Assembly (NCBI GenBank): GCA_025403435.1
Contig: CM046354.1
Span: forward strand, 41,985,779-42,049,778
Origin: Artocarpus heterophyllus
Lineage: Eukaryota; Streptophyta; Magnoliopsida; Rosales; Moraceae
Length of the DNA: 64,000 nt
Direction: 5' to 3'
Made by a program: the position numbers and the translations under genes. Positions 481 to 46,402 of the stretch are shown in pieces. The notes below the pieces were generated by a model. That model saw only the letters and a program-made list of their open reading frames with translations, was not told the DNA's origin and did not search any database. Numbering within the stretch: the stretch's first letter is position 1; every line of letters starts with the position of its first letter.

Positions 481-2541
481 TGTCACGCCTCAAAATCCAA
501 GAGGTGACATGGTGGATTAATTAATTTAATTAAATCAAATTTTAGTTAAAAAATTGCAATTAAAGAATTTAGTTGGTTATTAAAAATTTGATGAAATTGA
601 ACCTTTTAAATCTCTTATCAAAGTGATAAAACAGATAAGACAAAATAATTTAGAAAGGTAGACACGAGTGGGCCTCACCAGACACACATTGGTGCACACA
701 AATATAGTATTAACAATAATTAAAATTACAACCATAGTCCAATATAAGACATAAGAAATTAAAACATGCCTTGATTAGTCAATGCAAATAACCTACTCAA
801 AATCTTTTCCTACTCGCGAGTTCAATCAATAGCCTCCCAATCAGTCCTAAGTTGAATTCCACCTAAGGGGGAAAGGTTTGAAAACAAATAAAATGTGAGT
901 GAAAGGCTTCTTAGGACTAGAATTTAAAATCATTTAATTTGAAAATGAAATTTATCATTTAGAAAAATATTTGGAAAATAGAATTAAATAAATAACTCAA
1001 TTAAATCATTCTTACCAAAAACAGTTCATTGTTTGTCCATAAAGGGTCTTATTATCTTTTCTTAGGCAAACCATAAATGTCACCACTGCAGTGGCCCAAT
1101 TGGTTTTCGAGACCTACCTTCAAGGTCGTACTCTACATGACCCAATCTCTAAGTATGATATCTTGCCCATTTAAGCATTTCTATCATTATTCAAATCTCA
1201 TTTTGCCAAGTGAGTTTGTTTACATTCATTATGCGATTCATTATGAATATCACATCATTCAACAGTTTATGAAAACAACTAATAATTTTTTTTTTTTAAT
1301 CATTCATTGAAAAACATTTTAGAAGAATTCATTTTTAGGGCAAAATCATTCAAAACATGGTTACCAAAGAAGGGTAAGAGTCCTACCTCAATATCTGACA
1401 TCGTGACTCAGCATCATAGTCCCGATCCACTATACGTTAGCTCTATGAAACCACAAACAACCTTAAATAAAGACTAAGTTCACAAATGTCTAGCTTGGGT
1501 ACTCTACACTACTAAGTTATCTCATGGTGTCTTAGTGTACCTTTGAAGTTCATAAAAATCATTCTACAGGATCAAAGTCTTTAACTAGGTTTAAAACAAT
1601 GAAAACGGGTGGAAAACATCAAATTTTATGGAGCCATGTCAGCCTGTCGAACTTCCTACTCCGACCTACCAAACTCCATAGTTCGGCCTATTGGCCATAC
1701 AACACCAGATTGCTGAACTTTCCCAGGTTCGGCATGCCGATGCGATGAGTCTGGCCTACCGATGCTCAACATTAGCCTGCCAAACTAGAAAAATTTGGAA
1801 ATTTCTAGATTCAAGCTTCGGCCTCCCCAAGCTCAAATCTTCATTTCCAAACAGTTTTTCAATTCCTAGAGCATGCATAATGATCATAAATGATAGAAAA
1901 ACATACTAGAACACTTTTAAACACATTCAAACAAGATTTACATATTAATTTTCAAAGAAATCCAAAAATAGACAAAAAGAGAAAATTTTGGTTTAATCCA
2001 TTTTTCATCAAATAAAGCCTAGATTCTAGATGATTTGAGTCTTACTAACTTAGATTGAAGGTTTCCTAAGCTCATAAAACTCAGATTTCAACATTCTAAG
2101 AAAATTTAGAAATTTGGGAAAAGGTTAAAGTTTTGAAAAATAGAGTAACTAACCTTGAATTTGATCTTGAAAAGGATTTGTGGATGCTCAATTGAGTCTC
2201 CAAGCTTCCAATTTAGTTGAGATTTAAGGGTTGAGCTCTAAAATTTTGAAACAAATTTGAGAGGGAATAGAGAAAGAAAGAGACAGCATGAGAGAAGGGG
2301 GGAAGAGAGAGACAGCGTCTAGGAGAGTAAGAGAGTGAGGAGAGGGAAAGTGAAATAAATAGAAATAGAGAGAGCAGTTTTTAGAATGAAAGTCATGTCC
2401 TGCATATTGTTTTTCAAAATGGGACATATTGAGCATTTGACAAATTGTTTTGTTTAAAAATTCAAAATAACAAATAAATATAATTAAGAGTGATTAAAAA
2501 TAAATAGAAATAACATTAATTTAGAAATATCACAAAATAAG
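481..2541 (-). mobile_element. Gypsy-1 5' LTR, truncated
   Basis: This long terminal repeat is the reverse-strand counterpart of the LTR at 33146-35280, recognisable along nearly all of its length (CT/GA-rich block, the same 22-bp dyad array, similar ends). On the minus strand it ends GGCGTGACA next to the primer-binding site. The opposite end lacks roughly the first 90 bases found in the other copy and is replaced at about 2541 by a piece of copia coding sequence. The short open frames in it (for example 1077-1310 and 2224-2436) are chance frames in LTR DNA. Confidence 0.8.
1639..1783. repeat. 21-22 bp dyad array in Gypsy-1 LTR
   Basis: Seven degenerate copies of the dyad TCGGCCTGCCGA start at about 1639, 1661, 1683, 1705, 1729, 1751 and 1772, so the spacing is 22, 22, 22, 24, 22 and 21 bp. 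The dyads are GC-rich and the surrounding LTR is AT-rich. In the element's own sense the centre reads AG. The same kind of array occurs in unrelated copia and gypsy elements in this window. Confidence 0.8.
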
Positions 2542-2615: not shown

Positions 2616-4402
2616 TGTTGGAAATAAAGTGTGCAGCGGAATTTTAAAATTTTTTTTCATCAGAGTAATTTCCAAAACACAAGTTTGACATGTTATATGT
2701 ATAAATTAAACAGATCTTACTAACCTCAGTGTGCCGAAGAACCTCCGCAACCTGTGTAGAGAAGTAACGTTCCAGAAGAGCCTCAACCAACTGGTCTTCT
2801 TTGCTATTCTCTATCCACAATCGGAGTGAGTGTGGGCTCACACGTACAGCTTTTCCACAGGTGACTCTCCTTCCAACCAATAGAGAGAACCCAAAGCTAA
2901 TATTCGTGATTTGTGAACAAAAGCTCTCAGGGATTTTTCAGATGCTCACTAGAAGAGTATCACTCTTAATCTCTCAAACTGATCTGAGTAAATCATGAGA
3001 CTCACTCCCTTTTTATATCTATTGGTCCTGGGGTCATTCCATATCAGATTAGGTCTCAAAAACTCAAAACAGAATCAAGTTCGGATCAATATCTGATAAG
3101 ATCTATGTGAAAACGCGTAATCTTATCTTCGCTGATCGACAGGCCAAACATTCTGATCAGCAGGCCAAACAGGCCACTTCGGTAGGCCGAACACGTCATC
3201 TGGCAGGCCGAACTCTTGAGAAAAAATCTCCACGAATCTTTTATTTTCCACCCGAGATTCTAAAGGATAAAGTCTCAGTTTTGATTCAAATAACCCAATA
3301 GAGAAGTTATCTGATCAAAACAAACTTTATCAAGATAATCTCTAAGAAAATAAATCAATTCACAATAATTCTACAAGTTTATCTTGTTCTAATTTTGTAC
3401 AAAATTAAAACAAGCGATAAATAGACAAGAATTATCTGATCGCAATAATTCAACAAGTTTACCTTGAACTAATTTCTTACAAAATTAATTCAACTGATAA
3501 ACAGACATGAATTATTTGATTCTTACAAATTTTAAACCAATTTGATAAATCCGACATAAGACACCAATTATTGGAAAAGCACGCCGTGTCGTTACAGGAT
3601 TTTGTGAGCTAGTAAAGGGGACCAAAATGGACCTATAAAGTTCAAGCTCATGATAATTATGAAACCTAATATCCCAGATATACATTTCACAATTATCAAC
3701 TCCAACGCTACTCCATTAAAAGCTTGGAGCTGCACTCTTGAACTTTATAGAATTACAAAGCTCGAGTAGCTAAGTCTCCATGACATATCATAGTGTATCG
3801 CATCCCCATATGATCATCCATAATCGGCTTAAGGACAAGTTCTGTCTTACCTTCACGATTATTTTTATCTTACGTTCCATTGTCTCACCATTAGAAAACT
3901 TACCATCCAAAGAGAGAATACCATTCGGTTACACCTATGTATCCAAATGGTTGAGCGCTCCAGTTTTTCAATTACAGGACAACGCATATAAGAGGATATC
4001 TCCTAAAGAGGAGCTATGGATTCCATATCTATGAATAACAAGTCTACGCTACCAATGACAACGTCACCTATGACAACGTGCCAATGTTTCTATTCATGAA
4101 GTCCAACTCTAGAAAACATAACAATCTTTACATGAATAAAGCGCCCAACTTTATTCCCTTGATTGTGGATCATATGTTTTAGACCATCACCTTAAGAATC
4201 GTGTCTTCCGCATAATCAGTCCATCATATGCCTAATTCTTAAGGTTTAGACTGACAGTCTCAAACTACTATTTGCTTATCATACATTCAACAAATATGAA
4301 CGTAAAGAGGACAAGATTTGGTATATGAATAGATTCTTTATTGATAAAAATGTCTCCAAAAATGTATTACATTTTTACTCCTTAGGGCATACATGTCTAA
4401 CA
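2616..4402 (-). mobile_element. copia A 3' LTR
   Basis: On the minus strand it begins TGTTAGACATGTATGCCC and ends TTTCCAACA, with the terminal TG and CA of an LTR. It is 1787 bp, shorter than its sister LTRs (about 2.0-2.1 kb). An internal deletion of roughly 220 bp is visible at about 4050, where CTACGCTAC runs straight into the sequence of the CACATCGTCACC region. A dyad array lies at 3136-3211 on the upstream side of the TATA region. A polypurine stretch (GTGCAAGTGCGAGA on the minus strand) follows pol just outside the LTR. Confidence 0.85.
3134..3213. repeat. dyad array in copia A 3' LTR
   Basis: Four copies of the TCGGCAGGCCGA dyad start at about 3136, 3157, 3179 and 3200 (spacing 21, 22, 21 bp). 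The third copy has long matching arms. Several CG steps have become TG or CA, as expected from decay of methylated cytosines. The cluster lies in U3, about 120-200 bp upstream of the TATA-like stretch near 3009-3019. Confidence 0.8.
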
Positions 4403-10299: not shown

Positions 10300-10365
10300 G
10301 TAGTTCGGCCTGCCGGATGACGTGTTCGGCCAGCCGAACTGGCCTGTTCGGCCTACCAATCAGCG
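10300..10365. repeat. dyad array upstream of copia TATA box
   Basis: Three dyads are clear: GTTCGGCCTGCCGGA, GTTCGGCCAGCCGAAC and GTTCGGCCTACCAA, with a partial ACTGGCC between. The middle one has perfect 7-bp arms around a two-base centre. The block ends about 115 bp before the TATA box at 10478, a position typical of proximal promoter elements. Confidence 0.75.
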
Positions 10366-11945: not shown

Positions 11946-12409
11946 TATGGACCAACGATGGAGGCCTTAGGTCCTCTCTTCGAAAACCTTCTCCCACTCA
12001 ATCTTTTGAAGTCAAGGTTTTATTTTAAAATTATGCATGAACAATTTTAATATGAGCGGCACTCCCTATTCTATATGACATGTTATCAATATATATGGTA
12101 AATCATATTATAATGCAGACAAGCAAAGCTACAAGAAAAATAATAATAACCGTAATATTATGGTTCCACCCTAGAGAATAGAAAAATAAGATTACAAGAG
12201 AATAATCGAGACATTTATCGATTCTTCATCCTTGAATCCTCAAGCTGTATCCTTCTTCATGTAATATCCATCTTCAAGTCTTCAATCCCGCATGAATCGA
12301 ATACTTCATATTTTCGGTCATATCCAAATTTAATGTTTCTCAGAATCGTCTCAAAAATAAAATTAAAACTGCACCGAAAAAATTGCACCTTTTCTGGACA
12401 CTCGGCAGC

Positions 12410-12620
12410 TCTCGATCGGCAGGCCAATCTGGGTGATCGGCCTGCCGGTCTTGCTCCATAGGCCTGCCGATCTGAAACATCGGCCTGTCGATCTATGCAG
12501 GTTCGGCCTGCCGGCAGAGCACCAAAATTTCTGCCCCACTGTCGGCCTACCGGACCACACGTCCGACCTGTCGATCTGTGACCTTCGGCCTGCCGAACTG
12601 TGAGGTCCGGCATGCCGACA
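12410..12620. repeat. dyad array in copia A leader
   Basis: About nine copies of the TCGGC-NN-GCCGA dyad are spaced mostly 21-22 bp apart, matching the array at 20184-20365 in B. Most have a CT centre on the plus strand, opposite to the AG centre of the LTR arrays of the same element. Confidence 0.8.
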
Positions 12621-13116
12621 GAGCAGAAAACCCTCAATCCAGAAAATACAATTTTAATGCAATTTATCAATTTTATTTTCAACAATTCAAAAACATAAAA
12701 TTAAAGACTCAGGAAATACCTGGAGGCGCCATCATCAATCTTTAAGATCCGACTTCTCGTTCCATCTTCTCCGAATAGTTATTTAATTACAAAATTCTTA
12801 CAAATTAAAAATTAAATAACAATCCCTAGACGGAGATGAGAGTCCGCCATCTAATTACATGAAAAACCTAGATACACATTCTAACCTCTAAGGAACCATA
12901 ACCGGTATTAATTAATTAATAAATAATTAAACAACGATTTAATCAATCATAATTAATTAATAAACATTCACCACATAATCCATGACAACATATATATTAT
13001 ATAGAAACCTAGAGTGTCATCTCTCTATAAAATTCAATTCAAGCATAGGAGAGATTAAGATCACAAAATTTATGCATATAACATGATACAAACTTGTAAA
13101 TTTATGTAAAAACCTC

Positions 13117-13129
13117 GGCTCTGATACCA
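13117..13129 (-). promoter_or_regulatory. copia A primer-binding site
   Basis: The minus strand reads TGGTATCAGAGCC, a perfect match to the initiator-tRNA-Met site, two bases from the LTR edge at 13132. It shows that the LTR 13132-15252 is the 5' LTR of A. Confidence 0.9.
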
Positions 13130-13605
13130 ATTGTTGGAAACAAAGTGCGCAGCGGAATTTTAAAAAAATTTTTCATTAGAGTAATTTCTAAAACACAAGT
13201 TTGACATGTTATATGTGTTGGAAACAAAGTGCGTAGCGGAATTTTAAAAAAAAATTCATCAGAGTAATTTCCAAAACACAAGTTTGACATGTTATATGTA
13301 TAAATTAGACAGATCTTACTAACCTCAGTGTGCCGAAGAACCTTCGCGACCTGTGTAGAGAAGTAACATTCCAGAAGAGCCTCAACCAACTGGTCTTCTT
13401 TGCTATTCTCTATCCACAACCGGAGTGAGTGTGGGCTCACACATACAGCTCTTCCACCGGTGACTCCCCTTCCAACCAACAGAGAGAACCCAAAGCTAGT
13501 GCTCGTGATTTGTGAACAAAAGCTCTTAGGGATTTTTTTAGATGCTCACTAGAAGAGTATCACTCTTAATCTCTCAAATTGATCTGAGTAAATCATTAGA
13601 CTCAC

Positions 13606-13617
13606 TCCCTTTTTATA
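13606..13617 (-). promoter_or_regulatory. TATA box of shared copia LTR
   Basis: The minus strand reads TATAAAAAGGGAG, identical to the box at 10478. Transcription would run leftwards through R/U5 into element A. Confidence 0.7.
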
Positions 13618-13733
13618 CCTATTGGTCCTAGGGTCAGTCCATATCAGATTAGGTCTCAAAAAATCGAAACAGAATCAAGTTCGGATCAATATATGATAAG
13701 ATCCGCATGAAAACGCGTAATCTTAACTGTCGT

Positions 13734-13816
13734 CGGTCGGCAGGCCAAACTTTCTGATAGGCAGGCCGAACAGGCCAGTTCGGCAGGCCGAACACGTCAT
13801 CCGGCAGGCCGAACTG
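13734..13816. repeat. dyad array in shared LTR
   Basis: Four dyads lie here, including one with perfect 7-bp arms (GTTCGGCAGGCCGAAC, near 13779-13794), at roughly 21-22 bp spacing and about 120-200 bp upstream of the TATA box. Confidence 0.8.
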
Positions 13817-15266
13817 TCGAGAAAAAATCTCCGCGAATCTTTTATTTTCCACCCGAGATTCTAAAGGATAAAGTCTCAGTTTTGATTCAAATAGCCCAAT
13901 AGAAAAGATATCTGATCAAAACAAACTTTATCAAGATAATCTCTAAGAAAATAAATCAATTCACAATAATTCTACAAGTTTATCTTGTTCTAATTGTCCA
14001 AAATTAAAACAACCGATAAACAGACAAGAATTATCCGAACGCAATAATTCAACAAGTTCATCTTGAACTAATTTCTTACATAATTAATTCAACCGATAAA
14101 CAGACATGAATTATTTGATTCTTATAAATTTTAAAACAATCTGATAAATCTGACATAAGTCACCAATTATTGGAAAAGCACGCCGTGTCGTTTCAGGATT
14201 TTGTGAGCTAGCAAAGGGGACCAAAATGGACCTATAAAGTTCAAGCTCATGATAATTATGAAACCCAATATCCCAGATATACATTTCACAATTATCAACT
14301 CCAATGCTACTCCACTAAAAGCTTGGAGCTGCACTCTCGAACTTTATAGAATTACGAAGCTTGTGTAGCTAAGTCTCCATGACATATCATAGTGTATCGC
14401 ATCCCCATATGATCATCCATAATCGGCTTAAGGACAAGTTCTATCTTACCTTCCCGATTATTTTTATCTTACGTTCCATCGTCTCACCATTAGAAAACTT
14501 ACCATCCAAAGATAGTATACCATTCGGTTACACCTATGTATCCAAATGGTTGAGCGCTCCAGTTTTCCAATTACAGGACAATGCATATAAGAGGATATCA
14601 TTACTCCTAAAGAGGAGCTATGGATTCCGTATCTATGAATAACAAGTCTACGCTATCAAGAGTCATGCCTCCAACGTACCGGCATGCATGCCACTATAGA
14701 GATGTGGGAGTCACCCATTGGTACATCAAAAGACACAAGTCGAGACAACGGGCCCATTATTCATCTCAGGATTAAGATACAATACAAATGATTGTCTAAA
14801 GTGAATCGATTTCCCAAGACAGAATTATTAATCCAAATCAATTCACTTTATGTCCCGATCCAACACATCGTCACCTTCGACAACGTGCCAATGTTTCTAT
14901 TCATGGAGTCCAACTCCGATGGTCAAGACAAACCATCTCCCAAAAGGAATATAGACAACATAACAATCTTTACATGAATAAAGCACCCAACTTTATTCCC
15001 TCGATTGCGGATCATATGTTTTAGACCGTCACCCTAAGAATTGTGTCTTCCGCATAATCATCCCATCATATGCTCAATTCTTAAGGTTTAGACTGACAGT
15101 CTCAGACTACTGTTTGCTTATCATACATTCAACAAATATGAACGTAAAGAGGACAATAGTTGGTATATTTATAAATGAATAAATTCTTTATTGATAAAAA
15201 TGTCTCCAAAAACGTATTACATTTTTACTCCTTAGAGCATACATGTCTAACAATCTCCCACTTGCC

Positions 15267-18254
15267 CTAAGTGAGTAAATACTGCAAATTTCTCGTCCCC
15301 ATAGCTTCCACATGCCTCTTGAAGACTCTCCCAGTAAGTGTCTTCGTAAATGGATCAGCTTAATTGTCCTCTGACGCGATCTTGCACACCGTGACATGCC
15401 CGCTCTCAACGAAGTCCTTTATCACATGATACTTCCGATCAATATGCTTACTCTTCTTGTGAAATCTTGGTTCCTTAGCATTAGCTACCACCGCACTATT
15501 ATCACAGTACAGTGATACCGCCTTATCCATACCAGGAACTACCTCAAGATCCCCAAGGAACTTGCGGAGCCACACTGCTTCTTTTGAAGCATCACTAGTC
15601 GCCACATACTCGGCCTCCATCGTTGAATCCGAAGTGCAATCTTGCTTCGCACTTCTCCAACTGATGGCACCGCCACCTAGAGTAAACACAAACCCCGAAG
15701 TCGATTTCCTAGAATCCAGACAGGATTGAAAATCCGAATCAGTGTATCCTAGAGGAGTTAAATCCTCACCCGAATACACAAGCATATACCCTCGAGTCCT
15801 TCTCAGGTACTTGAAAATATGCCTTACCGCAACCCAATGGTTCGGTCCTAGATCCGCCTGAAATCGACTCATAATTTCAACCGCATAGCTAATATCCGGT
15901 CGAGTGCAAAGCATGGCATACATGAGACTACCCACTGCAGAAGCATAAGGCACCTTCTTCATGTATTCTCTTTCTTCATAAGACTTTGGAGAGTCTTTCT
16001 TAGAAAGGGTAATTCCAGACCTAGATGGTTGCCCACCTTTCTTGGAATCCTGCATTGCAAACCTCTTGAGAATTTTTTCTATGTAGCTGGCCTGTGGCAA
16101 AGCTATCATTTTGTTCTTCCTCTCCCGAAAGATCTGGATACCGAGAACAAAATTAGCCTCACCTAAGTCCTTCATGTCAAACTGCTTGGTCAACCATAAT
16201 TTGACCGATGACAATGCCCCAACGTCATTGCCAATTAGAAGAATGTCATCTACATAGAGTAGTAGAAAAACCACCTTCTCATTCTTAATGTGTTTGTAAA
16301 CACATGGTTCATCCACATTTTGTGAGAACCCATAAGTCTTGATCACTTGATCAAATCTTATGTTCCAAGAACGAGAAGCCTGCTTAAGTCCATAAATTGA
16401 CTTTAGCAGCTTACAAACCTTACCCTCTTGACCTGCGAACTTGAACCCGTATGGTTGTTCCATATAAATGGACTCATCAAGATAGCCATTCAGAAAAGCC
16501 GTCTTGACATCCATCTGCCAAATCTCGTAGTCGAGAGCGGCAGCTATGGACAAGAGAATCTGGATGGACTTAAGCATGGCTACAGGCGAAAAGGTTTCCT
16601 CATAATCGATTCCTTCTTTTTGCGTATAACCCTTAGCTACCAGTCTAGCCTTAAAGGTTTCGACCTTTCCATCCACTCCCCTTTTCCTCTTGTAGATCCA
16701 CTTACACCCTATGGGTTTTACCCCTTCGGGAAGATCCACAAGCTCCCAGACCCTATTAGTCTCCATAGACTTCATCTCTATGTTCATGGCCTCTATCCAG
16801 AGTCTTGAATCAACATCCTCCATAGCTTCTGTGTAAGTATAAGGATCCCTGTCATGTTCATCCGGTTCAGCCAAAAAGACCTCCCCATTGAACATATACC
16901 TCTCAGGTTGACGCCCGATCCTCCCACTACGCCGAAGCCCCTGAGGTTGTTGTTCAGGTTTGTTTGGTTTTTCTACACTGATCGGAATGGTTACATTCGG
17001 AACCTCTGGAGTAAACGGATCACCCCTCAACTCCTCAAGCACCACTTTGCTTCGAGGTTTAAAGTCGTTCATGTAACTCTCCTCAAGGAAAGTTGCATTA
17101 GTTGAAACCACGACTTTATTTTCCTTTGGGTTATAAAAATAACCCCCTTTAGTCCCTTTTGGATATCCTACAAACACGCAAACTTCTGAACGTGCTTCCA
17201 ACTTATTCGGATCCTTAAACAGGACATGAGCTGGACATCCCCATATGCGAATATGGTTTAAGGATGTCTTCCATCTTGTCCACAACTCGTAAGGAGTTTT
17301 AGGGACCGATTTTGAAGGTACATTGTTCAAAAGATAACATGCGGTTTGTAGTGCATATCCCCAAAAGGATAAAGGCAATGATGAATAACTCATCATGGAC
17401 CGAATCATGTCCAAAAAAGTCCTATTCCTTCTCTCCGCTACGCCATTCTGCTGCGAAGTGCCCGGCGCAGTCAAATGGGATAAAATCCCATTCTCTAACA
17501 AGTGTCCCAAGAACTCTTCAGAAAGGTATTCCCCACCTCGATCAGATCGAAGTGCCTTTATGGGTTTACCCAATTGCTTTTCTTCTTCAGCCTGAAACTC
17601 CCTGAACTTATCATAAGTTTCACTTTTGTGGTGCATTAGGTACACATACCCATATCTTGAGTGATCGTCAATGAAAGTGACGAAGTACTCATACCCTCTT
17701 CGTGCCCGGATGTTCATCGGTCCGCAAACATCACTATGCACAAGTTCTAGAACCCCTTCGGCCCTATTGCCCTTAGACCCGTATGGTCTTTTGGTCATTT
17801 TACCCTCCAAACAAGACTCACATTGAGGTATAGATTCCACCTTTAAGTGACTTAAAGGTCCATCCCTTACCAACCTTTGAATCCTATTCAGGTTAATATG
17901 ACCAAGGCGCAAATGCCAAAGATAAGTCTTATTAGAGTGAGAAGTTTTAAGTCTTTTTGAGTCGTTATCATTTATCTCAGTATTAAGCAATAGGTCCATC
18001 TTAGGTTTGATAAAATATAGATTATTTTGCATCCATCCAGAACAGATAAAAGATTTGTTTTTACGAATCACCACTTTTTTATTAAAAGATACCACGTAGG
18101 AGTCTTTAAATAAAGAAACAGAAATTAAATTCCTTTTAAATTTAGGAACATAAAAACAATCTCGCAAAATTAAATTCCTATAATTATCAAAGTAAAGATG
18201 GACATCTCCCACTGCTTCCGCTGAGACCAAGGATCCATCGCCCATCCGAAGCAT
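15267..18254 (-). pseudogene. copia B pol: integrase-RT-RNase H
   Basis: The best preserved copia frame here: 964 codons open from 18254 to 15360. Integrase: HHCC at H114, H119, C145, C148; D,D35E at D175, D238, E274. [14 protein letters not shown] near 511-522, [13 protein letters not shown] near 619-631, YVDD at 667-670. RNase H fills the C-terminus ([35 protein letters not shown]). One stop near the end (DN-stop-ADPF; TTA to TAA at about 15360) removes the last 31 residues or so, which remain readable to the stop at 15267-15269. The nominal start is an internal methionine: the true protein begins with gag at 19217, and a stop at about 18296 separates them. Confidence 0.92.
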
Positions 18255-18259
18255 TAAGT

Positions 18260-19217
18260 CTTCACGAAGTAGACTTCTCGTTTCTTTGAATCCCTATAGA
18301 GAAACACAAACATGATTAGTTGCACCAGAATCTATGACCCAAATGTCACTGGATTCCTCAACCAAACAAGTTTCTAAATATAGAAGATCACACCTACCTC
18401 CCTTGGAAAGGAAGTCCTTGCAATGCTTCTTTATATGCCCGACCTTACCACAGAAGAAGCACTTAAGCTTCTTTGGGTTCTTCTTCTTCTTCTTCTTGCT
18501 CTTGGTAGCAGCAGGAATAGAAGACTTCCCACTTTTGGCCTGTTGCTTCTTTCCATTCAAAGAGTTAGGATTGGAACCAGAAGCAGCTACCATATTGGCC
18601 TCTCCACCAGCAGGAGACTCCCTGATCAGCAGTTCAAACTCCTGTAATTGCTTCATCAGTTCTGTCAAGGTCATATCCCGTCTATTGCTCAAATTAAAAG
18701 TAGCTCTAAACGGAATAAATTCCTTAGACAGAGTCTCAAAGACCATAGTCATTTGAGTTTCAGCATCGATGTCGGCTCCATTGGTTTGAGCCTCAGCGAG
18801 GTAACCCATGACCAACATCATATGCTCCTTTACAGATGTCCCCGGTCTCTGTCTACAGTTTAAGAGTTTTCGAAGCACCCCTTGCCGCTTTGTTATGGCC
18901 TGGCCTCCAAACATGTCCTCAAGATTTTCCAAGATCTGCTTCGCAGTGTCATAATCTTGATGTTGAGCCTACAGCACGTTGTTCATGCTAGCCACAAGAT
19001 AGCAGCGGGCCTGATCATTAGCATCTTTCCAGCGGTCGTACGCTTGGAATTGCTCATTACTTGAGTCTCCCGTAGGCTCGGGAGGACAAGGAGTTGTCAA
19101 AACATATTTCAGTTTCTCAAAGGAAAGGATGATGTCCAGGTTCCGTTTCCAATCGTTATAGTTCTCACCAGTTAATTGGTTTTTGTCAAGTATCGATGAT
19201 AAAGCGTTTTTAGACAT
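18260..19217 (-). pseudogene. copia B gag-protease
   Basis: Capsid, nucleocapsid and protease part of the polyprotein. It starts at the ATG at 19217 (MSKNALSSILDKNQLTGENY) and is interrupted at MNNVL-stop-AQHQ (CAG to TAG, about 18970). The second part, 18294-18932, has the CCHC zinc knuckle CFFCGKVGHIKKHC at residues 158-171 of that frame and the protease WVIDSGATNH with DSG at 201-203. A lysine run precedes the knuckle. A third stop (CAG to TAG, about 18296) falls just after VCVSL, before pol. Zinc-binding and catalytic residues are all kept, so only the stops disable it. Confidence 0.88.
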
Positions 19218-19374
19218 TTTCAATCTACAATAAAGAATCATATACCAAACATAGGCAAACATATATATTAATTTAGTAAGATAACACAATCATGTAAAAT
19301 CATACAAATGTGTTTATGTGTCAAAACCTTGAAAATATCACAACCTTACAACGATAATTCCCAACTCAGAATTC

Positions 19375-19700
19375 AACAAGCTCCTAGGGGAGTCATGCTA
19401 AATTCAATCAGGAACACGGATCCCCTCTTGATTAATATATACCTTCCAGGACCCGTATGATCCAGCATATATTAATAATCGTTTCTTTGGCCATTAATTT
19501 TATTAACAGAGCTCCTAGGGGAGGTTAATAATAAAATTAACATGAGTGTATAACCACTGTTTCAATATTTTATCCATGATTTATAATCACCACCTAGGGG
19601 TGTGCAACCATAAATCATACTAAAATACCTTATCCTTTAGAGATCCAATCTGGTACATGATAGAAATCCCTTCCTAGGGGTTGGGACCACCATGTTCTTC
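19375..19700 (-). repeat. four CCTAGG hairpin segments in leader B
   Basis: CCTAGGGG at 19383, 19514, 19593 and 19673. The complementary arms seen in A are kept here (TAATTTTATTAAC against GTTAATAATAAAATTA; ATGATTTAT against ATAAATCAT). One is flanked by CTCC and GGAG directly. Confidence 0.65.
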
Positions 19701-20181
19701 CTATGGACCAACGATGGAGGCCTTAGGTTCTCTCTTCGAAAACCTTCTCCCACTCAATCTTTTGAAGTCAAGGTTTTATTTTAAAATTATGCATGAACAA
19801 TTTTAATATGAGCGGCACTCCCTATTCTATATGACATGTTATCAATATACATGGTAAATCATATTATAATGCAAACAAGCAAAGCAATCAAGCAAAGCTA
19901 CAAGCACAATAATAATAACCGTAATATTATGGTTCCACCCTAGAGAATAGAAAACTAAGATTACAAGAGAATAATCGAGACATTTATCGATTCTTCTTCC
20001 TTGAATCCTCAAGCTGTATCCTTCTTCATGTAATATCCATCTTTAAGTCCTCAATCTCGTATGAATCGAACGCTTCATATTTCCGGCCAAATCCAAATTT
20101 ATTGTTTCTCAGAATCGTCCCAAAAATAAAATTAAAACTACACCGAAAAATTACACCTTTTCTGGACATTTGGTAGCTCTC

Positions 20182-20366
20182 GGTCGGCAGGCCGATCTAG
20201 GTAATCGGCCTACCGATCATGGAGGTTCGGCCTGCCGAACTTAAAGGTTCGGCCTGCCGGCAGAGCACCAAAATTTTTGCCCCACTGTCGGCTTGCCGGA
20301 CCGTACGTCTGGCCTGCCGATTTGTGACTTTCGGCTTGCCAAACTATGAGGTCCGGCATGCCAATC
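20182..20366. repeat. dyad array in copia B leader (reference copy)
   Basis: Dyads start at 20184, 20205, 20227, 20249, 20288, 20309, 20331 and 20353: spacing 21, 22, 22, 39, 21, 22, 22 bp. The copy at 20225-20240 is the perfect 16-bp form GTTCGGCCTGCCGAAC. The sequence between dyads is not conserved, so it is the dyad and its spacing that are kept, not a simple duplicated block. Confidence 0.85.
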
Positions 20367-20864
20367 GAGCAGAAGAAACCTTAATCCAGAAAATACAATT
20401 TTAATGCAATTCATCAATTTTATTTTCAACAATTCAAAAACATAAAATTAGAGACTCAGGAAATACCTGGAGGCGCCATCATCAATCTTTAAGTTCCGAC
20501 TTCTTGTTCCGTCTTCTCCGAATAATTATTTAATTACAAAATTCTTACAAATTAAAAATTAAATAACAATTCCTAGACGGAGATGATAGTCCGCCATCTA
20601 ATTACATGAAAAACCTAGATACACATTCTAACCTCTAAGGAACCATAACCGGTATTAATTAATTAATAAATAATTAAGCAACAATTTAATCAACCATAAT
20701 TAATTAATAAACATTCACCACATAATCCATGACAACATATATATTATATAGAAACCTAGAGTGCCATCTCTCTATAAAATTTAATTCAAGCATTGGAGAG
20801 ATTAAGATCACAAAATTTATGCATATAACATAATCACAAAATTGCAAATTTATGTAAAAACCTC

Positions 20865-20877
20865 GTCTCTGATACCA
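20865..20877 (-). promoter_or_regulatory. copia B primer-binding site
   Basis: The minus strand reads TGGTATCAGAGAC, one mismatch from the initiator-tRNA-Met complement, two bases from the LTR edge at 20880. Confidence 0.85.
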
Positions 20878-20879
20878 AT

Positions 20880-22894
20880 TGTTGGAAACAAAGTGCGCAG
20901 CGGAATTTTAAAAAAAATTTCATCAGAGTAATTTCCAAAACACAAGTTTGACATGTTATATGTATAAATTAGACAGATCTTACTAACCTCAGTGTGCCGA
21001 AGAACCTTCGCGACCTGTGTAGAGAAGTAACGTTCCAGAATAGCCTCAACCAACTGGTCTTCTTTGCTATTCTCTATCCACAACCGGAGTGAGTGTGGGC
21101 TCACACGTACAGCTCTTCCACCGGTGACTCTCCTTCCAACCAACAGAGAGAACCCAAAGCTAGTGCTCGTGATTTGTGAACAAAAGCTCTCAGGGAGTTT
21201 TTTAGATGCTCACTAGAAGAGTATCACTCTTAATCTCTCAAATTGATCTGAGTAAATCATTAGACTCACTCCCTTTTTATACCTATTGGTCCTAGGGTCA
21301 GTCCATATCAGATTAGGTCTCAAAAAATCGAAACAGAATCAAGTTCGGATCAATATCTAATAAGATCTGCATGAAAACGTGTAATCTTAACTTTCGTCGA
21401 TCGGCAGGCCGAACTTTCTGATAGGCAGGCCGAACACGTCATCCGGCAGGCCGAACTGCCGAGAAAAAATCTCTGCGAATCTTTTATTTTCCACCCGAGA
21501 TTCTAAAGGATAAAGTCTCAGTTTTGATTCAAATAGCCCAATAGAAAAGATATCTGATCAAAACAAACTTTATCAAGATAATCTCTAAGAAAATAAATCA
21601 ATTCATAATAATTCTACAAGTTTATCTTGTTCTAATTGTCCAAAATTAAAACAACCGATAAACAGACAAGAATTATCCGAACGCAATAATTCAACAAGTT
21701 CATCTTGAACTAATTTCTTACATAATTAATTCAACCGATAAACAGACATGAATTATTTGATTCTTATAAATTTTAAAACAATCTGATAAATCTGACATAA
21801 GTCATCAATTATTGGAAAAGCACGCCGTGTCGTTACAGGATTTTGTCAGCTAACAAAGGGGACCAAAATGGACCTATAAAGTTCAAGCTCATGATAATTA
21901 TGAAACCCAATATCCCAAATATACATTTCACAATTATCAACTCCAACGCTACTCCACTAAAAGCTTGGAGCTGCACTCTCGAACTTTATAGAATTATGAA
22001 GCTTGTGTAGCTAAGTCTCCATGACATATCATAGTGTATCGCATCCCCATATGATCATCCATAATCGGCTTAAGGACAAGTTCTATCTTACCTTCTCGAT
22101 TATTTTTATCTTACGTTCCATCGTCTCACCATTAGAAAACTTACCATCCAAAGATAGTATACCATTCGGTTACACCTATGTATCCAAATGGTTGAGCGCT
22201 CCAGTTTTCCAATTACAGGACAACGCATATAAGAGGATATCATTACTCCTAAAGAGGAGCTATGGATTCCGTATCTATGAATAACAAGTCTACACTATCA
22301 AGAGTCATGCCTCCAACGTACCGGCTTGCATGCCACTATAGAGATGTGGGAGTCACCCATTGGTACATCAAAAGACACAAGTCGAGACAACGGGCCCATT
22401 ATTCATCTCAGGATTAAGATACAATACAAATGATTGTCTAAAGTGAATCGATTTCCCAAGACAGAATTATTAATCCAAATCAATTCACTTTATGTCCCGA
22501 TCCAACACATCGTCACCTTTGACAACGTGCCAATGTTTCTATTCATGGAGTCCAACTCCGATGGTCAAGACAAACCATCTCCCAAAAGGGATATAGACAA
22601 CATAACAATCTTTACATGAATAAAGTGCCCAACTTTATTCCCTCGATTGCGGATCATATGTTTTAGACCGTCACCCTAAGAATTGTGTCTTCCGCATAAT
22701 CATCCCATCATATACTCAATTCTTAAGGTTTAGACTGACAGTCTCAGACTATTGTTTGCTTATTATACATTCAACAAATATGAACGTAAAGAGGACAATA
22801 TTTGGTATATTTATAAATGAATAAATTCTTTATTGATAAAAATGTCTCCAAAAATGTATTACATTTTTACTCTTTAGAGCATACATGTCTAACA
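20880..22894 (-). mobile_element. copia B 5' LTR
   Basis: A complete 2015-bp LTR, TGTTAGACATG to TTTCCAACA on the minus strand, very close in sequence to 13132-15252. It carries the TATA box at about 21270-21281 and three dyads at about 21399-21462, two of them nearly perfect. At its outer end (22894) it meets not a target duplication but another, truncated LTR piece. Confidence 0.88.
21397..21463. repeat. dyad array in copia B LTR
   Basis: Three dyads (GATCGGCAGGCCGAAC, GATAGGCAGGCCGAAC, ATCCGGCAGGCCGAAC) at 21-22 bp spacing, about 120-180 bp upstream of the TATA box. One repeat present in the shared LTR is missing here, a copy-number change of one unit. Confidence 0.8.
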
Positions 22895-23217
22895 ATATGT
22901 ATAAATTAAACAGATCTTACTAACCTCAGTGTGCCGAAGAACCTCCGCAACCTGTGTAGAGAAGTAACATTCCAGAAGAGCCTCAACCAACTGGTCTTCT
23001 TTGCTATTCGCTATCCACAACTGGAGTGAGTGTGGGCTCACGCGTACAGCTCTTCCACCGGTGACTCTCCTTCCAACCAATAGAGAGAACCCAAAGCTAA
23101 TGTTCGTGATTTGTGAACAAAAGCTTTGAGGGGGATTTTAGATGCTCACTAGAAGAGTATCACTCTTAATCTCTCAAATTGATCTGAGTAAATCACGAGA
23201 CTCACTCCCTTTTTATC
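22895..23217 (-). mobile_element. orphan copia LTR piece (U5/R end)
   Basis: Matches the R/U5 side of the family LTR from ATATGTATAAATTA onward but lacks the terminal 75 bases or so. It stops at the TATA region (CACTCCCTTTTTAT) and is fused directly to plus-strand pol of element C. It joins the right end of the A+B tandem to the C+D block in head-to-head orientation. Confidence 0.75.
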
Positions 23218-25568: not shown

Positions 25569-26786
25569 TATTAGATGTGTATGCCCTAAGGAGTAAAAAT
25601 GTAATATGTTTTTGGAGATATTTTTATCAATAAAGAATTTATTTATTATTTATGTATCAAATCTTATCCTCTTTATGTTTATATTTGCTAAATGTATGTT
25701 AAGCAAAGAATAGTTTGAGTAGCTTGGAGTTGATAATTATGAAATATATATCTGGGATATTGGGTTTGATAATTATTGGGAGCTTAGACTATATAGGTCC
25801 ATCAAGTCTTCTTTGCTAACTCATAAAAATCTTATAACGATACGGTGTGCTTTTCTAATAATTGGCGACTTATGTTAGATTTATCAAATTGATTGAAATT
25901 CGATAAAATCAGATAATTCATGTTTGTTTATCGATTGATTAATTTTGTGACAAAATTAATTTAAGATAAACTTGTTGAATTATTGGGATCAGATAATTCT
26001 TGTTTGTTTATCAGTTGATTTAATTTTCAATAGATTAAATCAAGATAAACTTGTAGAATTATTAGGAATTCATTTATTTTCCTAAAGATTATCTAGATAG
26101 AGTTGTTTTAATCAAATAACTTCTCTATTAGGTTATTTGAATTAAAACTGATACTTTATCGTATAGAATCTCGGATGAAAATTAAAAGATTAGCTAAGAT
26201 TTTTATCACAGGTTCGACATACTGATCCTCTAGTTTGGCCTATCGATGGGGCAAGTTCGGCATACCGACTGCACGATAAAAAGATCACGTATTTTCACGT
26301 GGATTTCATCAAATATTGATCCGAATTTGATTCTGATTTGAATTTTTGAGGCCTTATCTGATAAAGACAGACTCTTGGGCCCAACCTCTATAAAAAGGGA
26401 GTGAGTCTCATTATTATTTAGATCAATTGAGAGATTAAGAGTGATACTCTGTTGGTGAGATTCTAAAACTCCCTGAGAGCTCTTGCTCACAATCACAAAC
26501 ACTAGCATTAGGTTCTCTTAATTGGTTGGAAGGAGAGTTACTTAGTGGAAGAGCTATACGCGTGAGCCCACACTCACGCCGATCGTGGATAGAGAATAGC
26601 AAAGAAGGCCAGCTGATTGAGGTCTTTCTAGAGCGTTACTTCTCTTCACTATTTGAGGAAGCTTTTTGGCATTTACAAAGTTAGTAAGATCTGGTTAATT
26701 TATGATATAATGTGTCAAACTTGTGTTTTAAAAAATACTCTCATATAAAATTTTTTAAAATTCAGCTGCATACTATTTTTATAATA
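25569..26786 (+). mobile_element. shared LTR: 3' of copia C, 5' of copia D
   Basis: Starts TATTAGATGTGTATGCCC after the polypurine tract of C (TG has become TA) and ends near CTATTTTTATAATA, the decayed TTTCCAACA. At 1218 bp it lacks about 775 bp of U3; the join is at about 25720. The TATA region (TATAAAAAGGGAG) is at about 26390-26402. D's leader follows at once, so this LTR serves both elements, as in the A+B tandem. Confidence 0.8.
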
Positions 26787-28489
26787 GTCAAAGCCATGGT
26801 TTTTGCATAAATTTGCAAGTTTGTGATCATGCTACATATATAAATTATGTGATCTTGAATTTAATTTTTTAAATTATGTGATATCTCCTATACTTGAATT
26901 TAATTTTTTAGAGAGTTTGCACTCTAGGTTTCAATATATTATTATGTTGTCATAGAATATATGGTGAATGTTTATTAATTAATTATGGTTGATTAAATTA
27001 TTAATTTATTATTAATTAATTTATTTATTTATGCTGGTTACGATTGCTTAGAGGTTAGAATATGTATCTAGGTTTTTCATATTATTAAATAGCAAACTAT
27101 CATCTTCGTCTAGGAATTATTATTTAATTTTTAAATTTGTAAGAATTTTGTAATTAAATAATCATTCGGACAAGATGGATCTAGAAGATGGATGATAGCA
27201 TTTTCAGGTATTTCTTGTGCCTCTAATTTTATATTTTTAAATTGTTAAATTCCATTGAAGATGTATTTTCTAGAAAAGGGTGATCTTTGCTCGGTCGGCA
27301 TGCCATACCCTCAGGTCCGGTAGGCTGAAGGTCGCAAATCGGTATGTCAGACTTTAGGGTCGGTGGATCGTTAGCGGGGTAGAAATCTAGTGGCTCTAGC
27401 AACAGGCTGAACTTTCCAGTTTGGTAGGCGAATCTGTCATGACCAGTAGGTCGATTTGAAAAGATCGACAGGCCAAAGGGTCATGACTGGTAGATCGATC
27501 ACACAAATCGACATCTCGGCAAAGAGCATTAATTTTTTAGAAAAGGTGCGTTTTTCGACACAGTTTGGATTTTATTTTTGAGACAATTTTGAGAAACATT
27601 AAAATTTGGATATGACCGAAAATATGGAGTATTCGATCTATGTGGGATTGAAGACTTGAAGATAGAGGTTACATGAAGAAGGATACAATTTTGAAGATTC
27701 AAGGATAAAGAATCGATGATATGTTTTGATTATTCTCTTATAATCTTTGTTTTCTTTTTCTCTAGAGTGGAACCATAATGTTATGATTATTATTATTATT
27801 TTGCTTGCAGCTTTGCTTGATTGCTTTGCTTGTCTACATTATAGTATGATTTGCCATGTATATTGATAACATGTCATAGAGAATAGGAAGTGCCGCTCAT
27901 TAAAAATTGTTGATGCATGTTTATAAAATAAAACCTTGATTTCAAAAGAATGAGTGGAAGAAGGTTTTCGAAGAGACGACCTACGGCCTCCATCGTTGAT
28001 CCATAGGTAGCACATGGTGGTTCCGACCCCTAGGAAGGGACTTCATCATGTATCGGGTTGGATTTCTGAGAGGATAAGGTCTTTTAGCATAATTTATGGT
28101 TGCAAACCCCTTGGTGGTAATTATAAATCGTGGATAAAATATTGACATGATGGTTATACACTGATGTTAATTTTATTATTAACCTCCCCTAGGAGCTTCG
28201 TTAATAAAATTGATAGCTAAAGAAACGATTATTAATATATGCTTGATTTTTTGGGTCCCGGATGGCATATATTAATTTGGAAGGGATCCGTGTTCCTGAT
28301 TGAATTTGGCAAGACTCCCCTAGGAGCTTGTTGAATTCTAAGTTGGGAATTATCATTTTAAGGTTGTGATATTATCAAGGTTTTGACACAAAAACACATT
28401 TGTATGTGTTACATGATTGTGTTATCTTACTAAATTATTATTATATGTTTACTTATGTTTGGTATATAATTCTTTATTATAGATTAAAA
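26787..28489 (+). other. copia D 5' leader
   Basis: Aligns with the A and B leaders in opposite orientation. The primer site is damaged (GTCAAAGCC in place of TGGTATCAGAGCC). A degraded dyad array lies at about 27290-27530. The four CCTAGG segments remain: CCCCTAGG near 28028, CCCCTTGG (one change) near 28107, CCCCTAGG near 28187 and near 28317. No protein is encoded. Confidence 0.72.
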
Positions 28490-31745: not shown

Positions 31746-31826
31746 AGTTCGGTAGGCCGATCTTTAAGTTTGGCTTGCGATGGAGCAAGTTCGGTAGGCT
31801 GATCTGCCTGTTTGGCCTACCAACCG
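31746..31826. repeat. dyad array in copia D LTR
   Basis: Dyads start at 31749, 31770, 31791 and 31812, exactly 21 bp apart. Two have an AG-type centre and two a CT-type centre, so orientation of the centre is mixed within one array. Confidence 0.78.
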
Positions 31827-33145: not shown

Positions 33146-35280
33146 TGTAAGACCCTGAAATTTATTAAGTATAATTAGTGTGCCATGGTGTAACTTGAAC
33201 TTAATTTAACTATTTCATGATATTTTCAAATTAATGTTATTTCCATTTATTTCTAATCACTTTTAATTATTTTTATTTGTTATTTTGAATTTTTAAACAA
33301 AACAATTTGTCAAATGCCCAATGTGTCCCATTTTGGAAAACCATGTGCGGGACATAGTTTTCATTCTAAAAGCTGCTCTCTCCCTCTCTATTTATTTCAC
33401 TCTCCCTTTCCTCACTCACTCACTCACTCTCCCAGATGCTCTTTCTCTTCCTTCCCTTTCTCATGCTGTCTCTCTCTTTCTCTCTTCCCTTTCAAATTTC
33501 TTCCAAGATTTTGGAGCTTAAGCCCTAAATCTCAGTTGGATTGGAAGCTTAGAGACTCAATTGAGCATCCACAAACCCTTTTCAAGATCAAATTCAAGGT
33601 TAGTTACTCTATTTTTCAAAACTTTAAACTTTTTCCAAATTTTTAAATTTTCTTAGAATGTTGAAATCTGAGTTTTATGAGCATAGGAAACCTTCAATCT
33701 AAGTTAGTAAGAATCAAATCATCTAGAATTTAGGCTTGATTTGATGAAAAGTGGATTAAACCAACTTTTTCTCTTTTTCTCTATTTTTGGATTTCTTTAA
33801 AAATTTCTATGTAAATTTTGTTCGCATGTGTTTAGATGTGTTCTAGTATGTTTTTCTATCATTTATGATCATTATGCATGCCATGGGAATTAGAAAACTA
33901 GTTGGAAATGAAGATTTGAGCTCGTGGAGGCCGAAGCTCAAACCTGGAAATTTCTAGATTTTTCTAGTTCAGCAAGTCGATGTTGAGCATCGGCAGGCCA
34001 GACTCATCGCGTCGGCAGGCCGATCCTGGAAGAGTTTGACAGGCTGGTGTTGTACGGCCAGTAGGCTGAGCTGTGGAATTTAGTAGGCCGAACCAAGAAG
34101 TTCAGCAGGCCAACCGGGCTCCATAAAATTTGATGTTTTTCACCCATTTTCATTGTTTTAAACCTAGTTAAAGACTTTGATCCTGTAGAATGATTTTTGT
34201 GAACTTCAAAGGCACACTAAGGCACCATGAGATAGCTTAGTAGTGTAGAATACCCTAAACTAGATATTGATAAACTTAGTCTCTATTTAAGGCTGTTTGT
34301 AGTTCCGTGGAGCTAATGTATAGTGGATCGGGGCTATAATGCTGAGTCACAGCGCTGGACTTTGAGGTAGGACTCTTACCCTTCTTTGGTAACCATGTTT
34401 TGAATGATTTTGGCCTAAAAATGAATTCTTCCAAGATGTTTTTCAATGAATGATTGAAAAAGATTTTTTATTAGTTGTTTTAATAAACTGTTGAAGGATG
34501 TGATATTCATAATGAATCGCATGACGACCATAAACGAACTCACTTGGTAAAATGAGATTTGAATAATTATAGAAATGCTTAAATGGACATGATACCATCT
34601 CAAAGATCGGGTTGTGTAGAGTGTGAACTTGGGGGCAGGTCTCAGAACCAAGCTGGGCCACTATAGTGGTGACATTTATGGTTTGCCCAAGAAAAGATAA
34701 TAAGATCCTTTCTAGATGAACAATGAACTGTTTTTGGTAAGAATAATTTAATTGAGTTTATTTATTTAATTTTGTTTTCCAAATATTTTTCTAAATGATA
34801 AATTTCATATTCAAATTAAATGATTTTCAATTCTAGCTCTACTGAGCTTTTCGCTCATATTTTATTTGTTTTCAAACCTTTCCCCCTCTAGGTGGAATTT
34901 AGCTTAGGACCGATGAGGAGGCAACCTTTCAGACTCACGAGCAATAAAAGATATTGAGTAGGTTATTTGCATTAACTAATGAAGGCATGTAATATTTTAA
35001 TTTCCCATTTCTTATATTAGACTATGGTTTTAATTTTAATTATTGTTGATACTATATGTGTGCACACCAATGTGGGTTCGGTGAGGCCCAACTCGTGTCT
35101 ACCTTTCTTTATTATTTTGTCTTATCTGTTTTATTATTTCAATAAGAGATTTAAAAGGATTTAAATTTATCACATTTTTCATAACCAACTAAATTCTTTA
35201 ATTGCAAATTTTTAACTAAAATTTGATTTCATTAAATTAATTAATCTGCCACATCACCTCTCAGATTTTGGGGTGTGATA
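33146..35280 (+). mobile_element. Gypsy-2 3' LTR
   Basis: 2135 bp from TGTAAGACCCTGAAATT to GGGGTGTGATA. It is the same family as 481-2541, whose end reads GGCGTGACA. A CT-rich block (about 33370-33500), the dyad array (33969-34113) and the section GTGGTGACATTTATGGTTTG are shared with that copy. The right end abuts minus-strand copia LTR sequence (ATTCCATATCTATG), which it seems to have interrupted. No second half of that target is seen on the left, so later rearrangement removed it. Confidence 0.85.
33967..34115. repeat. dyad array in Gypsy-2 LTR
   Basis: Seven dyads start at about 33969, 33990, 34012, 34036, 34058, 34080 and 34102 (spacing 21, 22, 24, 22, 22, 22), the same pattern as in Gypsy-1 including the 24-bp step. 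Confidence 0.82.
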
Positions 35281-38210: not shown

Positions 38211-38387
38211 GTTCGGCAGGCCGAACTTGGGACTTCGGCAGGCCGGAGTTCCCTCAATCGGCAGGCCGGTAGAGGCTTTGCAATTCGGACAAAAAATTCA
38301 TCCATGTTCGGCAGGCCAAAAAATGTGATCGGCAGGCCGAACTTCTGGACATCGACAGGTCGGCCAACAAGTTCGGTAGGCCGTCCG
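38211..38387. repeat. dyad array, distal, F 3' LTR
   Basis: Dyads start at 38213, 38235, 38258, 38308, 38329, 38352 and 38373 (spacing 22, 23, 50, 21, 23, 21). Centres read AG on the plus strand, opposite to the second array of the same LTR at about 40557. Confidence 0.82.
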
Positions 38388-40387
38388 AGACCGATCTTTG
38401 AGAAAACTTAAAATTTTAAAACAAACCAACTTTTCGTAAAACATAGCAAAAGTTCATAATTCATTAAAAATGATAAAATATCTTATAAAACCATAATATA
38501 AGTATTCTTAAAACTTAACATAAAATATATGTTAAAAATATATAACTTAATTAAATCATAAAATCGTTCTTCTTGGCATGCTTTCGGTTACAATTCATCG
38601 TTCATAATGCTCGCACGCCTTCCCATGTCCTCCGCCTAGTCCATGATTTTCTAACCCTTATCTGCAACATGACATAAAACATGATTAAGCTAATGCTTAG
38701 TAAGTACATATAATTCTCACAATTTAAAACATTTCATAAACATCATCATCATCATCATCATCATCAAACCATAAAAGTGCCTTAAGCACAATTTCATATA
38801 AACATATCTTTCATTACGTTGACCATTTTAAAACTTATTCCATTTTTATCTTAAGGGCCCAAGTGTTGCACCATAAACATCATCATAGGCACGCTGTCAT
38901 GAGAGGAGAAGGGTAGCTAATCCCAAACCAAACATGACATCATAACATATCATTTCATAACATTGGGTGTGCAACACTTATTAGGTGATACATATATATA
39001 CATAACTTTCATGCTTTGAAACATGTCATCATCATACATGCATAACTTTAAATCATGAAAATCTTTCATAAGAAATCCTTTAAGGAAAATCATCATAAAA
39101 TCATCGTGAATGTCCTTGTAAACATATCATCAAACCTTGAAAAAGGTGTCATGTTGCAGGTGAGAATGTACTTACCTTATCGTTAGCTTACTTAACCTTA
39201 ACGTGATTTGGTGACGACGCCGCGGTCTCGTAGTGCTCGTTCCTTGAGTGTTCATGCCATTTTTCAATTAAAGATGCAATAACATTAATATGTATCATAA
39301 AACATCCATGCATATAACATTCATTCATATACATTCATCTCATAATCCATAACCATCATCGTAAAACATGAAATTATCATCACATATATATTTTCATCTC
39401 ATCCATTACAATCAATAATTCATAACCATAAACATTGTCATCACATAAACATGTTATTATGATTTTTCTTTAATTATAAAAATTACCTTAAGCATATAAA
39501 AACCAACCATACATTTTAAACATATTTATCTTTTAAATAAAATATTTTCGAACAAATACATATATTTTAATTTAAAACTCCATCCAAACATCATATTATC
39601 ATGCATAAAATCATTTTATTTTCATAAAATCATGTAAATACATAAATCGTTTAATAAAACAAAAATCCCAAAAACAACATTATCAAAACAGTTTTCTTAT
39701 TATAATCTCATAAAAATTTCATAATCATAAAATACATTGATCTTACATTATACTTGCATATTCTTAACAACTTTTCATGGAAACATCATTCATTACCTCT
39801 TGAATAATCATTAAATTTTTCATATATCAAAATTAAACAGTAACATTACTGTGAAGAGTAGAAGACAGAAATATTCATTTTTCATAAAACATTCATATGA
39901 CATGAAATTAGAAAACACCATATAACATATATGCATAACATCACATTTAAAAATTTGAGACAAAAAACAATACCTATGGAAAGATATTGTAGACGAAACG
40001 AGGAGAAGAATTTCTTTTCAAAAATACCAGAAAAGCCGAATTCATACCTTGAAGTTTCTTCTCAAAATCCTTGAATTTTAACCAACGAAGTAAGACTTTT
40101 CTTACAATTTTTGTAGAGAATTTTCGTGATAGAGAGAGAGAGAGAAAGAACTCATGGAGAAGAGAAGAGGAAGAGAGAAACAAATGTCTCAGAATTTTGA
40201 GAGAGAAAATAATGAAAAAGGAAACTTTAAATTTTTAACGTAATAGACATAATTGATGGGAATTCAATTCCCTTCATTAAGTCAGAATTTTCTGACTGTT
40301 GAGGGAGGCAAGAGGCGTGGAGAAAGGAAAGAAAAGAGGAAACCAAACAATCACTCACAACTTTCCATGTTTTGCCCATTTAAAATT

Positions 40388-44900: not shown

Positions 44901-44904
44901 GAGG

Positions 44905-45890: not shown

Positions 45891-46253
45891 TGAAACGCCC
45901 CTTAATTTGGATGTCACAGATATCGTTACATACTTTCATTCGTACATGCTTAAACTTTAAACATATAAATAATATCAAACTTAATCAGTACTATTGATTT
46001 TAAAAGTACTTAAACATACATAACCAGGATCCATTCATACCTCAAAATTATTTTTTTTATATATATAACTTAACATTGTTTAGAATAACATTGTTTAACT
46101 TATTCCATATCATAATTTATTCAATTATACTTAAATTAATCATGAACTTATTTAATAATATAGGTTTGTCAAGTTGTAAAAATCAGGACTTAACAAAACA
46201 TCACATCAAATCTCCTTGATCATCTCATCATTTAAAATTCATTTACTCCTAGA

Positions 46254-46402
46254 GTTCGGTAGGCTGAACTTGGGACTTCAGCAGGCCGAACATGATCGGC
46301 AGGCCGGAGTTCCCTCAACCGACAACCGGCAGAGGCTTTGCAATTTGGACCAAAAATTCATCCATGTTCGGCAGGCCGGCCAAAAAGTTTGGCAAGCCGT
46401 CC
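46254..46402. repeat. dyad array, distal, F 5' LTR
   Basis: Same region as 38211-38387 with small indels: copies at TTCGGTAGGCTGAAC, TTCAGCAGGCCGAAC, GATCGGCAGGCCGGA and others. Spacing is still mostly 21-23 bp, but one section has been deleted relative to the other LTR. Confidence 0.75.

Follow-up and report, generated by a model that had tools for sequence, protein, structure and literature searches.

The window analysed here, a stretch of 64,000 nucleotides from Artocarpus heterophyllus, holds copia and gypsy LTR retrotransposons whose control regions carry rows of a short palindrome, referred to below as the dyad. Copia-1 has LTRs of ~2 kb, a Met-type primer binding site (PBS) and a pol with RVT_2, and bears arrays in both the LTR and the leader. 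Gag-pol proteins carrying PF14223 are its relatives, and ~1,310-1,340 aa is a common length among them; three among the 120 matches listed take their name from Tnt1. From the PBS to the likely gag start, which was judged by eye, the leader spans ~1.65 kb (19215-20865). At 13118-13299, a PBS and ~83 bp of a copia LTR end directly adjoin the end of another copia LTR, a trace of recombination or nested insertion. The copia features are as follows.

20182-20366, minus strand: Copia-1 leader array of 8 dyads, between PBS and gag
20866-20877, minus strand: Copia-1 PBS, Met-type, one mismatch against TGGTATCAGAGC
20880-22894, minus strand: Copia-1 5' LTR
21271-21281, minus strand: TATA box of the Copia-1 5' LTR, TATAAAAAGGG
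21399-21456, minus strand: Copia-1 5' LTR array of 3 dyads, ~120 bp before the TATA box
15360-18293, minus strand: Copia-1 pol open frame (RVT_2, integrase)
13216-15252, minus strand: Copia-1 3' LTR, 97% like the 5' LTR
13735-13814, minus strand: Copia-1 3' LTR array of 4 dyads
12414-12620, minus strand: leader array of another Copia-1 copy, 9 dyads
3134-3213, minus strand: copia LTR array of 4 dyads
10303-10361, plus strand: copia LTR array of 3 dyads
26212-26270, plus strand: decayed copia LTR array of 3 dyads
27293-27478, plus strand: decayed leader array of a diverged copia copy
31747-31825, plus strand: copia LTR array of a diverged copy

Another host, Gypsy-F, had been listed in the initial annotation as a family "F" apart from gypsy, but its gag, protease, RT, integrase and SH3_Tf2-1 at 41217-45636 place it in Ty3/gypsy. 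Each of its ~3 kb LTRs contains two arrays, and in the 3' LTR a tandem duplication of ~306 bp (40381-41004) has doubled the upstream one. Gypsy-1, as found in the window, is a diverged relative (~64-67% in the LTR) of Gypsy-2, a family known from loci L010, L013, L017, L018, L022 and L038. The gypsy features are as follows.

45891-48938, minus strand: Gypsy-F 5' LTR, outer end approximate, read from the sequence
48560-48689, minus strand: Gypsy-F 5' LTR upstream array of 6 dyads, AG centres in sense
46254-46402, minus strand: Gypsy-F 5' LTR downstream array, CT centres in sense
41217-45636, minus strand: Gypsy-F coding region (gag, protease, RT, integrase, SH3_Tf2-1 in separate frames)
40861-41030, minus strand: Gypsy-F 3' LTR upstream array, copy 2 of the 306-bp duplication, extra dyad at 41015
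40555-40636, minus strand: Gypsy-F 3' LTR upstream array, copy 1 of the duplication
38211-38386, minus strand: Gypsy-F 3' LTR downstream array
1637-1785, minus strand: decayed Gypsy-1 LTR array (LTR ~483-2545)
33967-34115, plus strand: decayed Gypsy-1 LTR array (LTR ~33206-35278)

All 13 arrays listed in the initial annotation are present, with ends off by a few bases, whereas two decayed arrays of copia, the LTR one at 26212-26270 and the leader one at 27293-27478, had been missed; the dyads of its block 40556-40945 are there too, but form two arrays, 40555-40636 and 40861-40947, within the 306-bp tandem duplication.

The dyad arrays are real and far from chance. The 16-bp consensus GTTCGGC-AG-GCCGAAC, sought in both directions, occurs at 89, 72 and 46 places of the window at <=5, <=4 and <=3 mismatches, respectively, compared with 4-11, 0-2 and 0 places in ten first-order Markov shuffles of the same sequence, which bears out the array claim made earlier; a separate scan found TCGGCNNGCCGA at <=1 mismatch in 45 places against 0.15 expected. 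Across the genome (985 Mb), the exact 16-mer occurs 6,967 + 6,798 times, and the same pattern reversed (read backwards) is absent. The perfect core TTCGGC-N2-GCCGAA (TTCGGCNNGCCGAA) was counted 33,063 times (control, 27), whereas only 43 cores with a one-base centre and 22 with a three-base centre were found, the rough chance estimate being ~6 per centre length. The centre is thus rigid at 2 bp, and such a fixed spacing of two half-sites is a mark of arrays of dimeric-protein sites, which supports the dimeric host protein proposed among the initial candidates.

The step between neighbouring dyads is also strongly preferred. Genome-wide, 12,403 exact TCGGCNNGCCGA pairs have starts separated by 17-42 bp, and 9,774 of them (79%) lie at 21 or 22 bp, two of the 26 possible steps. 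Within the window and at loci L009-L043, the same step separates 116 of the 175 distinct successive pairs that are <=120 bp apart, in agreement with the repeat step first reported. Other steps occur as well (18, 20, 23, 26-27 and 39 bp), several of them common to multiple copies. In the Gypsy-2 copy at L017 the steps run 21, 20, 23, 26, 21, 22 and 22 bp, so that dyad 5 sits 90 bp, or ~8.6 turns, from dyad 1. Steps of 18, 26, 27 or 39 bp move the dyads that follow away from the helix face on which the first one lies, so strict helical phasing over entire arrays was rejected, and the description "helically spaced" proved too strong. The 21-22 bp may instead be the room that one bound dimer needs next to its neighbour; that small RNAs are similar in length to the step, as pointed out in the initial annotation, is not needed for the explanation. 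For 148 of the 158 neighbour pairs with a defined direction the two centres agree, as tandem duplication would leave them. From array to array both directions are found, which an orientation-free DNA element permits.

In the sample, the arrays are hosted by a single family of classic copia, in LTR and leader, and by Ty3/gypsy LTRs of two groups. All arrays of 20 stretches picked around exact 16-mers in the first 5 Mb of contig C1, where dyads are present by construction, fall within these copia and gypsy groups. Among ten motif-blind 5-kb stretches taken at round coordinates, two contain dyads, both in LTRs of Copia-1 or Gypsy-2, so the unit did not appear to be equally common outside LTRs, an outcome that would have spoken against a shared functional module. 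Of the 58 dyad pairs listed, 48 match sampled loci at <=4 mismatches, and the five examined among the ten unmatched ones all lie in Gypsy-F or copia sequence. When the dyads were masked (one copy per family compared), copia LTR and leader gave no match at E<=0.01 to the LTRs of Gypsy-F, Gypsy-1 or Gypsy-2, and the unmasked copia-gypsy matches are located in the arrays, which upholds the view that the arrays are common to non-homologous LTRs. In the masked comparison, Gypsy-1 and Gypsy-2 match each other, as expected of relatives, and Gypsy-F and Gypsy-2 share a single weak match (56 bp, E 0.005). Spacer identity between groups ranges from.226 to.290, against.241-.266 for shuffles. A recent copying of one block between copia and gypsy, with conserved spacers, was therefore rejected: the masked copies compared have no block in common, and cross-family spacers are near shuffled identity.

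Positions relative to promoters differ among the hosts. The copia LTR array stands in the lower LTR half before the TATA box, with 117 bp between array and TATAAAAAGGG in the two Copia-1 copies measured, and 5 of 7 aligned copia copies retain TATAAAWAGGG. Gypsy-F has one array in each LTR half, and no conserved TATA was seen after the downstream array in six aligned copies, one of which has a large gap. In Gypsy-2 the next TATA comes ~700 bp past the array, and the copia leader array follows the PBS and hence does not lie upstream of that promoter. GC is higher at the arrays than in their surroundings.

Conservation was compared as identity counting transversions only, in alignments of diverged copies. 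In the order dyad, spacer and flank, the values are.953,.806 and.881 for the Gypsy-F upstream array;.966,.939 and.938 for the Gypsy-F downstream array;.902,.614 and.944 for the copia LTR array;.944,.851 and.965 for the copia leader array; and.933,.866 and.883 for the Gypsy-1/2 arrays. Dyads thus exceed spacers in all five alignments, in line with the earlier statement that dyads are kept while spacers differ, and exceed flanks in the three gypsy sets only; in these comparisons the dyad columns were picked by motif likeness, a bias in their favour, and spacers align poorly. Copies differ by gain or loss of whole 21-22 bp units. Across 229 distinct sites, defined as lying within 5 mismatches of the consensus and having a neighbour 15-50 bp away, information falls off at the 16-bp edges, the centre is AG or CT in 197, and the half-site reads G(A/T)TCGGC with its complement; A and T are about equally frequent at position 2, and A predominates at position 15.

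Taken together, the arrays are probably clustered cis-regulatory sites for a dimeric host DNA-binding protein. Each 16-bp dyad would consist of two half-sites exactly 2 bp apart, read by a dimer in double-stranded DNA, and the next dimer would sit 21-22 bp away, alongside, without holding strictly to one face of the helix. The reader would be a host protein because elements with unrelated proteins share the site; copia and gypsy encode unrelated proteins, and a reader encoded by the elements was set aside. In the Copia-1 LTR, the array may act as an upstream activating element, as it stands where such an element would stand, ~120 bp before the TATA box, and arrays presumably grew by tandem amplification. 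Dyad, rigid centre, spacing, copia promoter position and whole-unit gain or loss are observed, as is the lack of copia-gypsy homology outside the dyads; a protein that binds as a dimer, activation rather than repression, uptake by several lineages and tandem amplification are what we infer from them. Several observations argue against this reading: copia dyads are kept less than their flanks in both LTR and leader, the dyad-spacer difference in the Gypsy-F downstream array is small, and the leader array folds strongly as RNA. The one-way centres are also more than a symmetric dimer needs, and the missing conserved TATA in Gypsy-F, the distant one in Gypsy-2 and the leader array past the PBS count against it as well. 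As for the reader itself, an LBD/AS2-type factor is our guess, and AP2/ERF, E2F and ARF sites, which we also considered for the dyad, were set aside. LOB domains, expected in any plant, are present in the genome (101 matches), and no usable LBD binding motif was found in the literature. LOB-domain genes are near-equal in score on the large contig pairs C1/C2, C11/C12 and C19-C22, as after genome duplication.

The fold of the copia leader array (z -9.07 against shuffles), in a leader that is transcribed, might suggest that the arrays were selected as RNA hairpins for packaging, dimerisation or translation, which nevertheless seems improbable. Complementary pairs are fewer than independence predicts at 1/16 (.441 observed vs.478 predicted), 2/15 (.384 vs.433) and 3/14 (.694 vs.732), the 2/15 association exceeding all 300 permutations in the direction of fewer pairs, while 4/13 and 6/11 are slightly above independence but inside the permutation range. 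This lack of excess pairing at outer positions is unlike an evolving RNA stem and agrees with half-sites that are each read on their own; selection for RNA structure is accordingly disfavoured despite the strong leader fold, although that fold may have consequences such as small RNAs. In addition, the array in the copia LTR precedes the TATA box, and Rfam gave no match in 12000-23000. About equally improbable is that the arrays are recognition points of the host at which methylation or small RNAs start and silence the elements. Each dyad contains two CpG, and, in passages of two reports, maize Sirevirus palindrome clusters attract many small RNAs (PMC10760457, PMC5311732); however, selection on the element should remove such arrays, yet several lineages keep them, and silencing may be a side effect.

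Functionless growth of a minisatellite by slippage would account for the whole units gained or lost between copies and for adjacent centres in the same direction, but spacers within an array are hardly alike (.15-.34) while dyads stay alike, and the same dyad in unrelated LTRs would be left unexplained, making this the least likely of the alternatives. A different question is where the shared site came from. It is possible, though we would not expect it, that recombination or template switching passed a regulatory module between copia and gypsy, in which case the shared AG centre and step would both descend from one seed dyad that was then amplified locally and whose spacers lost all likeness. 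Such an exchange concerns origin and is compatible with sites for a host dimer. The prevalence of AG/CT centres, more than two half-sites need, points in this direction, as do copia leader spacers slightly closer to those of Gypsy-F than shuffles are (.271 vs.253, SD.007, or 2.6 SD above); against it, copia and gypsy give no match outside the dyads, and the other five cross-family spacer comparisons stay within ~2 SD of shuffles. If the arrays are indeed sites for a host dimer, a bolder proposal, which we hold tentatively, is that copia and two gypsy lineages came to exploit one host dimer separately, each building arrays with an identical 16-bp site and an identical step; the tens of thousands of sites might then form one regulon switched together, and a sink larger than the host protein's own gene targets.

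That two unrelated kinds of element have the same palindrome rows in their control regions suggests that all of them use the same host protein. The dyad offers a handle on that reader: there is a single probe to use, its geometry is fixed, perfect cores number 33,063, and the half-site, the step and the number of units all vary naturally. With it one could test whether elements that are unrelated have converged on a common host regulator or exchange their control modules.

A related arrangement is known from the VANC motifs of Arabidopsis VANDAL elements, which are short, repeated, located in non-coding parts and bound by a protein that the element itself encodes; here, by contrast, elements with unrelated proteins share the site. 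The closest precedent is the repeated motifs (RM boxes) of Sireviruses. In the passages of Bousios et al. 2010 that bear on them (PMC2829016), these are palindromic CGG-CCG motifs in LTRs, placed in the upper LTR half shortly before the TATA box, said to define CpG islands, called Sirevirus-specific and absent from classic elements, and described there without a known binding protein. The present arrays resemble them in being multi-copy palindromes with a CGG-CCG core, in LTRs and with variable surroundings, and the 4-bp gap from CGG to CCG is the same in the Citrus, Vitis and Usier boxes of Table 3 (PMC2829016). According to the same passages, each Sirevirus element has its own box, found also before the envelope gene, whereas here one identical dyad occurs in classic copia and gypsy LTRs, and the 21-22 bp step and the leader array are peculiar to the present arrays.

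The hosts do not appear to be Sireviruses: they are gypsy elements and a copia family that lacks two Sirevirus features. The Sirevirus polypurine tract (PPT), AGGGGGAG, is described as present in several copies, the last being the final 10 bp before the 3' LTR (PMC2829016, in part); AGGGGGA[GA] is absent from 15255-20879 in one Copia-1 copy, and Copia-1 has a single PPT-like AGTGGGAG before its 3' LTR, a change that the same text calls common in classic copia. The linker from pol to 3' LTR averages 1.5 kb in Sireviruses and 0.078 kb in classic copia in that account, and is at most ~106 bp in the one Copia-1 copy measured. The Sirevirus 5' junction CA/ATTGG/TATCAGAGC does have a counterpart, AACA|ATTGG followed by TATCAGAGC either exactly or with a single mismatch, at L009, L014, L015 and L027 and in the window, but this is not decisive because some classic elements have similar junctions, as noted there (PMC2829016). 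One dyad common to classic copia and gypsy therefore implies that palindrome arrays are not tied to Sireviruses.

A literature search by title and abstract start, covering few subscription journals, found no report of dyad-type arrays in gypsy LTRs, and among the matches listed for the motif letters none, judged by title, concerned plant retrotransposons. In maize, a copia palindrome is also reported in Helitrons in the relevant portion of one study (PMC10760457), likewise one palindrome in two superfamilies of one genome; the partner in that account is Helitrons and not gypsy LTRs, and the palindrome was found as secondary structure. The category of the present arrays, which the initial annotation had not recognised, is thus already published as Sirevirus repeated motifs, and the hosts are new; as far as could be seen, the range of hosts, the occurrence of a single dyad in more than one superfamily, the constant step and the location in the leader are new as well.
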